A DNA stretch of 45,385 nt from the NCBI RefSeq assembly GCF_000337735.1, contig NZ_AOHX01000039.1, positions 129,651-175,035 of the forward strand, written 5' to 3'. The notes beneath the pieces were generated by a model that was given only the letters and a program-made list of their open reading frames with translations, searched no databases and was not told where the DNA came from. Positions 8,293-12,343 of this stretch are shown here, piece by piece. The stretch's first letter is position 1; each line of letters opens with the position of its first letter. A program made the position numbers and the translations under genes. The DNA is from Natronorubrum sulfidifaciens JCM 14089 (lineage in GTDB: Archaea > Halobacteriota > Halobacteria > Halobacteriales > Natrialbaceae).

Positions 8293-9090
8293 TTAGGCCT
8301 CGAGCGCGAGGCCGGCTTCCGTAAGCGCTTCCTCGGTCGAGAGATCGTCGTGAACGACGCCGGCTACGGCGCGGGCGATCGCTTCGGGATCGTCGTGCTG
8401 GAAGATCGATCGCCCCATCGAGACGCCTGCGCCGCCGGCGTCCATCACACCGCGGACCATTTCGATCGTCTCGCGGTCGGTTCCTTTCGAGCCGCCGGCA
8501 ATGACGACCGGGAGCCGGGTCGACTCGACGACGTGCTGGAAGCTCTCGGCGTCGCCGCTGTAGCCCGTTTTGACGATGTCCGCGCCGAGTTCCTCGGCGA
8601 GTCGGACTGCATGCCCGAGCGCTTCGGGATCTTCGGAGTCGACACCCGGACCGCGCGCGTAGGCCATCGCGAGCACTGGCATCCCGAACTGTTTCGCGGT
8701 CGCCGTGACTTCCGAGAGCTGGGCGATCTGGTCTGGCTCGTGGTCCGAACCGACGTTGATGTGGAAGGAAACGGCGTCAGCGCCGACGCGGACGGCCTCC
8801 TCGACGGTGCCAGTCATGCGCTTGTCGTTTTCGTCGGGGCCGATCGTCGTCGAGCCGTTGAGGTGGACGATGTAGCCTTTCCCGTTTTTGTTGTCGTGGA
8901 CGCGAGGCGCGATGCCTTTCTGCGTGAGGACTGCGTCGGCTCCACCGCTGGTGACGCCATCAATCGTCGATTCGATGTCTTTCAGCCCCTGGCAGGCACC
9001 GATCGTGATGCCGTGGTCCATCGGGACGATTACGTACGTGTCGTTTGTGCCGATTCGATCGAGTCGTGCGTCGATTCCTGTCGTAGTCAT
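8293..9090 (-). CDS. aroA': 2-amino-3,7-dideoxy-D-threo-hept-6-ulosonate (ADH) synthase
   Basis: Class I aldolase/transaldolase-like enzyme that starts the archaeal alternative shikimate pathway, producing ADH, the substrate of DHQ synthase II. The protein has 265 residues, the family length. Visible features include the VPMDHGITIGACQGL opening, which carries the conserved Asp-His-Gly, the FHINVGSDHE strand, the ADIVKTGYSGD segment with the Schiff-base Lys, and the phosphate-binding VIAGGSKGTDRE and GGAGVSMGRSIFQ loops. It follows trpA by 24 bp on the same strand and so is probably the last gene of a trpC-trpB-trpA-ADH synthase transcript, linking entry to and exit from the aromatic pathway. 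Confidence 0.95.
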   Translation of the reverse strand: MTTTGIDARLDRIGTNDTYVIVPMDHGITIGACQGLKDIESTIDGVTSGGADAVLTQKGIAPRVHDNKNGKGYIVHLNGSTTIGPDENDKRMTGTVEEAVRVGADAVSFHINVGSDHEPDQIAQLSEVTATAKQFGMPVLAMAYARGPGVDSEDPEALGHAVRLAEELGADIVKTGYSGDAESFQHVVESTRLPVVIAGGSKGTDRETIEMVRGVMDAGGAGVSMGRSIFQHDDPEAIARAVAGVVHDDLSTEEALTEAGLALEA

Positions 9091-9114: not shown

Positions 9115-10140
9115 TTATGGCTGTTCTGGTTCCGGGGCATCGATCTCGATATCGTTACCCTCATTGCCACCGCGGATCGCACCGCGTTTGAGTTCCTCGG
9201 CTTTGGCCTCGAGCGCCGGCGCGGGGTCGTCGCTTTCGGCGACGATGTCGATGAGCGCGCTGCCGACGATGACGCCATCCGCGCCGGCTTCGATGATCTC
9301 GGCCGCGTGGTCGCCCTCGCTGACGCCGAAGCCGACCGCCTTCGGAACGCCGTCGGAATTCGGTTCCGAAACGTCGTACTCCTCGAGCCGGGTCAGGCTG
9401 TCGTGGGTCGCGTTCGAGACGTCCGCGCGCGCGCCCGTCGTCCCGAGCCGGGCCTGCACGTAGACGAAGCCCGACGCCTGCGACATGATCCCCTCGAGTC
9501 GGTCGCCCTCGGTCGTCGGCGCGACGATGAAGACGAGGTCGAGGTCGTGGTCGTCACAGGCCTCGCGAAGCGGCTCTGACTCCTCTGCGGGCAGGTCGGG
9601 AACGATGATCCCCGAGAGGCCGGCCTCGGCCGCACGCTCGACGAACGGCCGCACGTCGGGTTTGCTCTGCGGCGGCGCCGCATCGCTATCCGAGGCGCGT
9701 GGCGCCTCGCTGTCCCCGTACTGGAGGATCATGTTATAATACGTCATCACCAGCAGCGGGGCCTCGGTCTCGAGGTCGTCGACGAGTTCGAAGAAGCCGG
9801 CTGGCGTCGTCCCGGCGTCGAGCGCGCGGTTGATCGCCGCCTGAATCGTCGGCCCCTCCGCGATCGGTTCGGAGAAGGGCAGGCCGAGCTCGATCAGGTC
9901 CGCGCCACCGCGGTCGAGGGCTTCGACGTACGCTTTGGTGTCCTCGAGCGATGGATCGCCCGCGGTGAGATAGGTGATGAGCGCGGGGTGGTGCTCGCGG
10001 ATGGCCGCTTCAATGTCGCTGCCGAACTGCTCGCCGCCGTCGGCTCGCAGTTCGCCGCTCGCGCTCGCGGGTTGCTCTGTCCCGTCGCTCCCCGCTCTCC
10101 GAGGATCGTCTTCCATCGGTCGTCGATCCTCGCCACTCAC
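9115..10140 (-). CDS. trpA: Tryptophan synthase alpha subunit
   Basis: Cleaves indole-3-glycerol phosphate to indole and glyceraldehyde 3-phosphate and channels indole to TrpB. The protein has 341 residues, longer than the usual 260-280. The extra length comes from a hydrophilic N-terminal extension of about 45 residues, a roughly 20-residue Asp/Ser/Pro-rich insert after YNMILQYG, and an acidic C-terminal tail. Catalytic signatures are [17 protein letters not shown] (catalytic Glu and Asp/Glu region), TAGDP and the phosphate site [10 protein letters not shown] plus GVIVGSAL. The first codon is GTG 10140, overlapping the trpB stop by four bases, which indicates translational coupling; an in-frame ATG eight codons later (MEDDPRR) is the alternative. 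Confidence 0.96.
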
Positions 10141-11402
10141 TGGCCAAACACCTCCACGTCCGGAGCCGCCTCGAGATCACGTTTCTCGGTCTCCTCGAGC
10201 ACCGTTTCCAAGTCCTTGTCGCCGCGCCCGGAGACGTTGACGACGACGAGGTCGCCGAGTTCCTCGTGTGCCTCCTCGAGATACCCGAGTGCGTGACTCG
10301 ACTCGAGGGCAGGGATGATCCCCTCGAGATTCGAGAGGCGGTGGAAGCCGTTGAGCGCGGCCTCGTCGTCGACGCTTGCGGGCGTCACGCGCCCGATGTC
10401 GACGAGATGGGAGAGTTCGGGGCCGACGCCGGCGTAATCGAGGCCGGCGCTGACGCTGTGAGATTCCATGATCTGACCGTCCGCACTCTGGAGGAGTTTG
10501 GTCATCGCACCGTGGAGTACGCCGTCAGTCCCCGTCGAGAGCGTCGCGGAGTTGGGGGCCAGCGCGTTTTCCTCGTCGATCTCGAGACTCGAGCCGCCGG
10601 CCTCGACGGCGTAGAGGTCGACCGCGTCGTCGGGGACGAACGCGTGGAACGTCCCCATCGTGTTCGAGCCGCCGCCAGCACAGGCGACGACGCTGTCGGG
10701 GAGTCGTCCCGCCCGCTCTCGAATCTGCTCGCGGGCTTCCTGGCCGATAACGGCCTGAAAGTCCCGCACCAGTTTCGGGAACGGATGTGGGCCGACGACG
10801 GAGCCAATCACGTAGTGAGTGGTCTCGACGGTCGTCGCCCAGTCGCGCATCGTCTCGTTGATCGCCTCTTTCAGCGTGCCGCTGCCGGCCGTGACGGGAT
10901 TGACCTCCGCGCCGTTCATCCGCATCCGGTAGACGTTCGGTCGCTGGCGGTTGATGTCCGTCCGGCCCATGTAGATCTCACAGGGCATGTCGAGATGGGC
11001 CGCCGCCATCGCGGTCGCGGTGCCGTGTTGGCCCGCGCCGGTTTCGGCGATGATCCGCTCTTTGCCCATGTACTTCGCGAGCAGGACCTGTCCGAGCGCG
11101 TTGTTCAGCTTGTGTGCGCCACCGTGGACCAGATCCTCGCGCTTGAGGTAGATCTCTCGGTCGTAGCGCTCGCTCAGCCGCTCCGCACGCTGCAGCGGCG
11201 TCGGTCGGCCGCCGAAGTCGGCCATCCGCTCGCGGAACTCGTCCATGAAGCCGTCCTCGTTGTTGAGGACGTAGCGTTCGTAGGCGTCCTCGAGTTCCTG
11301 AACCGCTGGCATCAGTGCTTCGGGGACGTACTGGCCGCCGTAGTCGCCGAACGTCGCCTCGCTGTCACGCTCGCGGTAGTTGTCGTGGTCGCTCGTGCTC
11401 AT
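10137..11402 (-). CDS. trpB: Tryptophan synthase beta subunit
   Basis: PLP enzyme that condenses indole with serine to make tryptophan. The protein has 421 residues, normal for TrpB1. Visible features are the [16 protein letters not shown] opening, the PLP lysine in [35 protein letters not shown], the phosphate-binding [12 protein letters not shown] loop and the [12 protein letters not shown] segment. ATG 11402 ([11 protein letters not shown]) is chosen because a GGAG-type ribosome site lies just upstream and homologues start here; the open frame continues for 20 unrelated residues. It is 37 bp after the trpC stop and overlaps trpA by four bases. Confidence 0.97.
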
Positions 11403-11439
11403 CGATCGTCTCCGTGCTGGTGTGGCTGGTTGCTCATGT

Positions 11440-12225
11440 CTACGTGTCTGTGGCACCCGCATCGACTAGCTGTTGCGTGTTCTCGGTTACGTCGCTGTCG
11501 CCGCCGGCGTGGTCCATGATGGCGCTGCCGACTAACAGGGCGTCGGCTCCCGCCTCGCGCATTCGCTGGACGTCGGCTGGCGACGAAATCCCGCTTTCGG
11601 CGATCACCGTCACGTCGTCCGGCACGTGGGGCGCAACTGACTCGAAGGTTTCGAGGTCCACCTCGAGTCGACCGAGATCCCGGTTGTTCACCCCGATGAT
11701 GTCGGCACCGGCCTCGAGGGCCGTCTCGAGTTCCGCGCGGTCGTGGACCTCCACGAGGGGCTGGAAGCCCCGCTCGCGCGTGGCGGTGATGAGGGCCTCG
11801 AGATCGTCGACGAAACGGACGATCAACAAGAGCAGATCGGCTTCGACGACGTCGAGTTGGTCCTCTCGGACGACGAAGTCCTTGCGGAGTACGGGGACGT
11901 CGACGGCCTCGCGGACGCGTGTCAGCGCCGCCGGCGAGCCACCGAAGTGGCTCGGCTCGGTGAGCACCGAAATCGCCGTCGCACCACCGTCGACCATCGC
12001 CTGTGCCAGTTCGACGGGGTCGTCATCACGGGTTCCGTCGGCGGTCGGACTCGTCGGTTTGACTTCAGCGATCACCGGGACACGGCCGTCGGCTTCTGCC
12101 CCAGCAATCGCGTCGGGCAGCGACTGCGCGTCTACAGCGAGTTGCGCATCTACGTCACCAGCCCGTTCCCGAGCAGCCTCGAGAATCGATGCGACTGCGG
12201 GAGCGAGCTCCGTCTCGGAGGTCAT
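11440..12225 (-). CDS. trpC: Indole-3-glycerol phosphate synthase
   Basis: TIM-barrel enzyme that closes the indole ring of CdRP. The protein has 261 residues. Signatures are [13 protein letters not shown] (catalytic Lys in the first strand), the [20 protein letters not shown] loop, [44 protein letters not shown] and [16 protein letters not shown]. It is the first gene of the minus-strand trpCBA-ADH synthase run. Its ATG lies only 4 bp from a set of three evenly spaced GTAC motifs that overlap the probable TATA box, so the mRNA is probably leaderless and regulated at initiation. The other tryptophan genes (trpD, trpE, trpF, trpG) are not in this window. Confidence 0.97.
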
Positions 12226-12228
12226 TAT

Positions 12229-12254
12229 TGTACATCAACGTACTCATATGTACA
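12229..12254 (-). promoter_or_regulatory. Candidate TRP-box operator and core promoter of trpC
   Basis: TGTACA at 12229-12234 and 12249-12254 flank a central GTAC core at 12240-12243. The three cores are spaced exactly 10 bp, one helical turn, so they lie on the same DNA face. The distal box overlaps the expected TATA position about 26 bp before the trpC ATG, on the minus strand within TTTTGTACATATG. TGTACA is, from memory, the TRP-box consensus bound by the TrpY repressor in Methanothermobacter. That a TrpY-like factor acts here is inferred. Confidence 0.6.
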
Positions 12255-12343
12255 AAAGCCTTGCGCCATACCCCGCCGACGTCGACGGCCGACCGCTGGC
12301 TGTGACCGGCGATTATTCAAGTCCCTACCCCCAAGGCACTCAC

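Follow-up and report, generated by a model that had tools for sequence, protein, structure and literature searches.

Phased TGTACA-type boxes at haloarchaeal trp promoters: a putative operator of the tryptophan regulon with TrpY as its candidate binder

Results

A Phased GTAC Array Lies Directly before trpC

In the window (the whole 45,385-nucleotide stretch of the Natronorubrum sulfidifaciens genome analyzed here), Pfam matches identify on the minus strand the gene order trpC-trpB-trpA-ADH synthase, running from 12225 to 8293 (table 1), and in Halobacterium salinarum trpCBA-OE1472F are known to form one operon (PMC4162585). The trpC start codon occupies positions 12225-12223, and directly 5' of it lies CGCAAGGCTTTTGTACATATGAGTACGTTGATGTACAATAATG, in which a BRE/TATA-like element is followed by three GTAC boxes. 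A first, sequence-only reading of this DNA had described TGTACA, CGTACT and TGTACA as placed exactly 10 bp apart against the trpC start and over the predicted TATA, a description that the sequence bears out: GTAC starts at 12230, 12240, and 12250, the array ends 3 bp from the ATG (TGTACA-ATA-ATG), and the operator as a whole forms an inverted repeat, TGTACAT-N12-ATGTACA, with a central GTAC. Because of the distance between the TATA-like element and the ATG, and of the precedent of H. salinarum lrpA1, for which a leaderless mRNA was mapped with a TATA at -27 (PMC2894021), transcription of trpC probably starts at or next to the ATG, which would make the mRNA leaderless or give it a very short leader. 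Further upstream, a divergent ORF starting at about 12344 on the plus strand looks alkyltransferase-like by eye; its promoter-like element at 12309-12326, ACTTGAATATTCGCCGG on the minus strand, is conserved 5' of trpC in many relatives.

Table 1. Features of the trpC operator and operon in the window, and the array of the second trp operon
Feature	Position	Strand	Evidence or remark
trpC operator (three GTAC boxes spaced by one helical turn)	12229..12254	-	Sequence; genome uniqueness; conservation in relatives; top match of genome-wide profile search
Box 1, TGTACA, overlapping TATA-like element	12249..12254	-	1.87 bits/column, 54 trpC promoters
Box 2, CGTACT (AGTACG on coding strand), variable box	12239..12244	-	1.41 bits/column, 54 trpC promoters
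Box 3, TGTACA, 3 bp 5' of trpC ATG	12229..12234	-	1.71 bits/column, 54 trpC promoters
TATA-like element CTTTTGTA	12251..12258	-	Sequence; conserved CTTWTGTA; ~29 nt from start codon
BRE-like CGCAAG adjoining TATA element	12260..12265	-	Conserved CGCAA; putative role
trpC, indole-3-glycerol phosphate synthase, first gene of operon	11440..12225	-	Pfam IGPS, E 3e-71
trpB, tryptophan synthase beta chain	10137..11405	-	Pfam PALP, E 2.6e-36; start by eye, mechanical ORF from 11462
trpA, tryptophan synthase alpha chain	9115..10140	-	Pfam Trp_syntA, E 2e-81
DeoC/LacD-family aldolase, linked ADH synthase (OE1472F-type)	8293..9090	-	Pfam DeoC, E 1e-52
trpD array (second trp operon)	G000:C47:51746-51801		TGTACA-type boxes at trp core promoter

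The Array Exceeds Chance Expectation and Is Conserved at trpC

The pattern GTACN6GTACN6GTAC has a single occurrence in the whole 3.46-Mb genome, for an expectation, drawn from the GTAC frequency of the window, of 0.15 phased triples per genome and of 5e-6 in 120 promoter positions; likewise, dinucleotide-preserving shuffles of the 200-bp promoter yielded a phased triple in none of 20,000 trials and a phased pair in 54. As for conservation, trpC was located in 60 of 61 related genomes, the upstream DNA was read for 56 of them, and 54 promoters were aligned. Within the window's own family, all three GTACs are exact and at the same distance from trpC in 32 of 37 genomes. Almost every other family of the order retains the array in a degenerate state, mostly with the outer boxes kept and with GTCC, GTTC, or GCAC as frequent variants of the middle box; badly degraded trpC promoters are few (L035, L040, L268). 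Simple relatedness does not account for this conservation, since the boxes carry 1.4-1.9 bits per column (table 1) versus 0.10 bits for the DNA located 40-80 bp upstream in the same 54 promoters.

Pattern searches lead to the same genes. Of 146 genomes belonging to the order, 59 contain TGTACAN14TGTACA and a single one its backward control, and 27 of the 30 sites inspected lie directly before trpC, with one more before trpD. The distances between GTAC pairs are multiples of 10 in 184 of 192 cases at trp promoters versus 6 of 29 in the whole window. The phased boxes that had been singled out in one promoter are thus a conserved feature of haloarchaeal trp promoters. Over the whole window, GTAC is itself more frequent than in dinucleotide shuffles (160 versus 112 expected), an excess that probably reflects codon usage rather than boxes.

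A Second Array Precedes trpDFEG and the Operator Is Restricted to trp Promoters

Beyond what the sequence-only reading had covered, the second trp operon of the genome, trpD-F-E-G, located outside the window (G000:C47, locus L271), has its own conserved element, CTTAAGTTGATgtacTGATTTGGACATTACAAGACAACTACgtacATTGGTGTTCACTATG, with boxes at 0, 10, and 30 bp and weaker echoes at 20 and 40. The box at 10 reads TGGACA here and TGTACA in other families, and the 0/10/30 array is kept in nearly all of the 50 trpD promoters examined. At E<1e-5, a profile built on it has matches in 25 genomes, all of them at trpD promoters, and it matched neither the Methanobacteriaceae nor the window; the architecture is common to these promoters, the spacer sequence not.

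When the trpC-operator profile was run against 31 whole genomes, the top match was a trp promoter in 30 of the 30 genomes with a match (27 trpC, 1 trpB, 2 trpD), and no other recurrent target gene appeared among the 31; the training set of this profile included trp promoters of some of the searched genomes, so that the force of the test lies in the absence of matches elsewhere. In two families whose trpB has its own promoter (f9 and f11), the operator stands at trpB and trpD and not at trpC (L263, L368, L369; G059, G046, G044). A larger regulon was considered and rejected: the weak extra operator matches (L362-L367, L370) are confined to single genomes and often fall inside or away from genes. 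One genome (G036) carries a second trpD paralog (L261, G036:C2:424715-425265) that has no array, and its main trpD copy has one.

Given that box 1 overlaps the TATA and that box 3 abuts the start codon, one may ask whether the conserved sequence is a core-promoter or leaderless-start signal (TATA, initiator, or start-codon context) and no operator. We hold this to be very improbable: searches of whole genomes show the pattern to be particular to trp promoters, and the trpD array extends tens of bp past the TATA.

Haloarchaea Encode a Single TrpY Homolog, Unlinked to trp

The sequence-only reading had proposed that a TrpY-like repressor, or a convergently similar one, governs trpCBA and the linked ADH synthase. 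The genome of the window encodes a single full-length TrpY-family protein (G000:C36:2412-2915, 167 aa), which scores 238.8 bits against NCBIfam NF053754 TrpY_fam (cut-off 180), aligns at 34% identity over 166 residues with a Methanobacteriaceae TrpY query, and has the N-terminal helix-turn-helix and C-terminal ACT domain of the family. With this query, a homolog was found in 58 of 61 relatives, and each of 50 high-quality genomes has one full-length homolog. The search for a solved structure close to TrpY gave none (best E 0.12). As compared with methanobacterial relatives and not with MTH1654 itself, the recognition helix shares the VDRR core and differs in the next residues (VDRRVVDST in haloarchaea, VDRRTIKAT in Methanobacteriaceae). 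The function of haloarchaeal TrpY homologs is stated as unknown in PMC6737238, and we found no proven regulator of haloarchaeal tryptophan synthesis named in the literature consulted.

The haloarchaeal trpY gene is unlinked to trp and adjoins hisB. Upstream of 30 haloarchaeal trpY genes no GTAC array turned up, and autoregulation of the gene was rejected on this ground. With regard to its neighborhood, a hisA-hisB-trpY-pyrE-like order is found at L182 (G057), and trpY also stands beside hisB in the genome of the window (L212, G000:C36), which could hint at an additional role connected with histidine synthesis. An ACT protein encoded next to hom (L088, found by PF01842) was rejected as a TrpY homolog, as it has the ACT domain and no TrpY_fam match; this protein of the same genome (L088:1102-1671), devoid of a TrpY-type HTH, overlaps the start of the homoserine dehydrogenase gene and may be a regulatory subunit.

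Phased Arrays Accompany TrpY across the Phylum

The resemblance to methanogen TRP boxes, another point of the sequence-only reading, could be followed in Methanobacteriaceae genomes, which were reached via the mcrA gene and in which the window's trpB retrieves trpB homologs at 50-56% identity. In two of them, trpY (NF053754) is divergent from trpE (L177, L178), and the trpY-adjacent trp promoters carry GTAC boxes of the TGTACA type, placed at 0/30 and 0/20; another three trpE promoters of this family have theirs at 0/30, 0/10, and 0/10/30. The multiples of 10 bp found at haloarchaeal trp promoters thus recur where trpY adjoins trp. These boxes flank the TATA on both sides, which, like the trpD array, speaks against a mere core-promoter signal.

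In a sample of 80 genomes drawn from the whole phylum, 77 encode TrpY. For 22 loci, representing 17 other families and the five Methanobacteriaceae, TGTACA-like arrays with periods from 6 to 15 were scored over 500 bp upstream of the first trp gene against the whole locus. At period 10, all 18 lineages counted as having a canonical VDRR/ADRR-type helix (a count for which the TrpY helices were read in two of the five Methanobacteriaceae) have the best or nearly best site of the locus there, with a chance number of about 0.1 or less, and no array is found in the two lineages without TrpY or the two with a divergent helix (1.6-4.4); this contrast is to be read with the caveats that the helix grouping was noticed post hoc, that first-gene assignments were corrected after seeing the data, and that families are not independent. 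The geometric mean is 0.096 at period 10 versus 0.33-1.17 at other periods, 15 being a partial harmonic of 30. One more lineage, f30, the nineteenth with a canonical TrpY, has its trp genes split, and neither trpE nor trpG is preceded by a clear array.

The array follows the first trp gene, whichever it is: trpC in f25; trpD in f19, f23, and f33; trpE in f18, f28, and f34; and trpB2 in f20, f22, and f35, a mobility that a core-promoter signal would not predict. Five families (f20, f22, f27, f29, f35) were negative or borderline when trpE was taken as first gene or 250 bp were scored, and their arrays appear with the true first gene and 500 bp. In f24, where trpC comes first among the trp genes, trpY stands divergent to it. 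The TrpY helices of f21 and f24 (L395, L384, L405) read VDRKVVVMAI or VDRNVVVLAI, and no TGTACA array is seen at their trp genes; they perhaps use a different operator code.

This association bears on the possibility that the boxes are a genuine trp operator bound by another regulator, for instance of the Lrp/AsnC (feast/famine) type such as LrpA2/Trh1, their likeness to TRP boxes being a convergence. LrpA2 was proposed to regulate aromatic amino acid synthesis on the basis of its induction, a 14.9-fold increase in mRNA when aromatic amino acids are withheld (PMC4162585), the TrpY of Thermococcus kodakarensis is not a trp regulator (PMC6737238), and it is hisB, not trp, that haloarchaeal trpY adjoins. 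However, the sites predicted for feast/famine proteins of H. salinarum follow an AT-rich pattern, nAAn{1-5}TTn (PMC4177876), whereas conservation in the array falls on TGTACA boxes, and TGTACA arrays adjoin trpY in Methanobacteriaceae, co-occur with TrpY across the phylum, and are missing from lineages that have no TrpY or one with a divergent helix. We thus regard another binder as unlikely: in the alternative offered by the sequence-only reading, the TrpY-like part is supported by these sequence comparisons for trpCBA and the ADH synthase, and the convergent regulator is disfavored because arrays associate with TrpY across families.

Discussion

A Candidate Switch for the Two trp Operons

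We consider it likely, with a probability of roughly 0.78, that the boxes serve as operator for a tryptophan regulon comprising trpCBA with the ADH synthase gene and trpDFEG, and that the genome's single TrpY, as the likeliest binder, would exert a tryptophan-responsive repression. TrpY as the binder, tryptophan as the ligand, and repression as the effect are all three what we infer from sequence. The family name by itself proves nothing, given that trp is not under TrpY control in T. kodakarensis (PMC6737238); the shared operator architecture is the stronger argument. According to the model, tryptophan would bind the ACT domain of TrpY, and tryptophan-loaded dimers would occupy TGTACA-type boxes one helical turn apart on one DNA face, the spacing suggesting a dimer or oligomer that touches successive boxes on that face. 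With box 1 on the TATA and boxes 2 and 3 between the TATA and the start site, a protein bound over this stretch would block TBP/TFB or RNA polymerase, hence the predicted repression, and the operon would be off; at low tryptophan, TrpY would be released and the operon turned on. The strong induction, in H. salinarum deprived of aromatic amino acids, of both trp operons, ADH synthase gene included (PMC4162585), fits such a derepression. A passage of PMC13147458, citing Large 2007, terms the Haloferax trpCBA promoter "not tightly regulated", which counts against the model. Also weighing against TrpY are its unlinked gene, the lack of an array of its own, the partly shared helix, and the lineage f30.

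TrpY might also bind the boxes and yet act as an activator, or answer to another effector, be it aromatic amino acids in general or histidine. The proximity of haloarchaeal trpY to hisB and hisA, the use of the activator Tar at T. kodakarensis trp (PMC6737238), and the joint removal of all aromatic amino acids in the H. salinarum experiment (PMC4162585) would all suit this scenario. Nevertheless, the boxes lie on and downstream of the TATA, where a bound protein normally blocks the transcription machinery, and the array is confined to trp operons, and we accordingly see little chance that this scenario, rather than tryptophan-responsive repression, is correct.

From an evolutionary perspective, we lean slightly toward a TrpY–TRP-box code ancestral to methanogens and haloarchaea, in which one TrpY per genome would read a phased NTAC/GTAC array before the first trp gene (trpC, trpD, trpE, trpB, or trpB2). 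The array would have been lost upon loss of TrpY or change of its helix, and the regulator gene would have lost its linkage to trp as the operator kept to the repeatedly rearranged operon. For haloarchaeal tryptophan control, there is now a set open to direct testing: two trp operons, the precise operator of each, and one candidate protein. If the model holds true, TrpY would move from a single methanogen case to a widespread archaeal amino-acid switch, and this would be useful where haloarchaeal genetics relies on tryptophan media, trp promoters, or trp markers.

Comparison with Known Systems

The TRP-box consensus is reportedly TGTACA, as given in the TrpY papers that appeared in J Bacteriol in 2007-2008. 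Like the TrpY/TRP-box system of Methanothermobacter thermautotrophicus (trpEGCFBAD), the haloarchaeal system has a TrpY-family regulator and TGTACA boxes at trp promoters, and its spacing in multiples of 10 bp is shared with the Methanobacteriaceae relatives of this methanogen. It differs in that trpY stands apart from trp and has no boxes before it, that trp is split into two operons, that the array covers the TATA and continues downstream as far as the start codon, and that the linked ADH synthase would be under the same control. A trpY both adjacent and divergent to trp and sharing its boxes, as autoregulation would require, is not seen in haloarchaea; adjacency occurs in Methanobacteriaceae and in family f24.

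In T. kodakarensis, the homolog TK1227, which belongs to the same protein family as haloarchaeal TrpY and is 42% identical to M. thermautotrophicus TrpY, neither binds nor regulates the trp operon, a role held by the activator Tar (TK0271) (PMC6737238). The Lrp/AsnC proteins of Halobacterium (LrpA1, LrpA2, Trh) resemble TrpY in being HTH regulators that respond to amino acids and possess a RAM/ACT-like effector domain, LrpA2 moreover responding to aromatic amino acid starvation, but their predicted sites are AT-rich and not TGTACA, and we found no trp site reported for them in the literature consulted. Bacterial TrpR and its trp operator offer an analogy, that of a tryptophan-responsive repression over the core promoter, with another protein family and another DNA site, so that no homology is implied. 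Among these systems, the haloarchaeal case is best read, on sequence grounds, as TrpY/TRP-box control in a variant form that has two operons and a regulator gene linked to neither.
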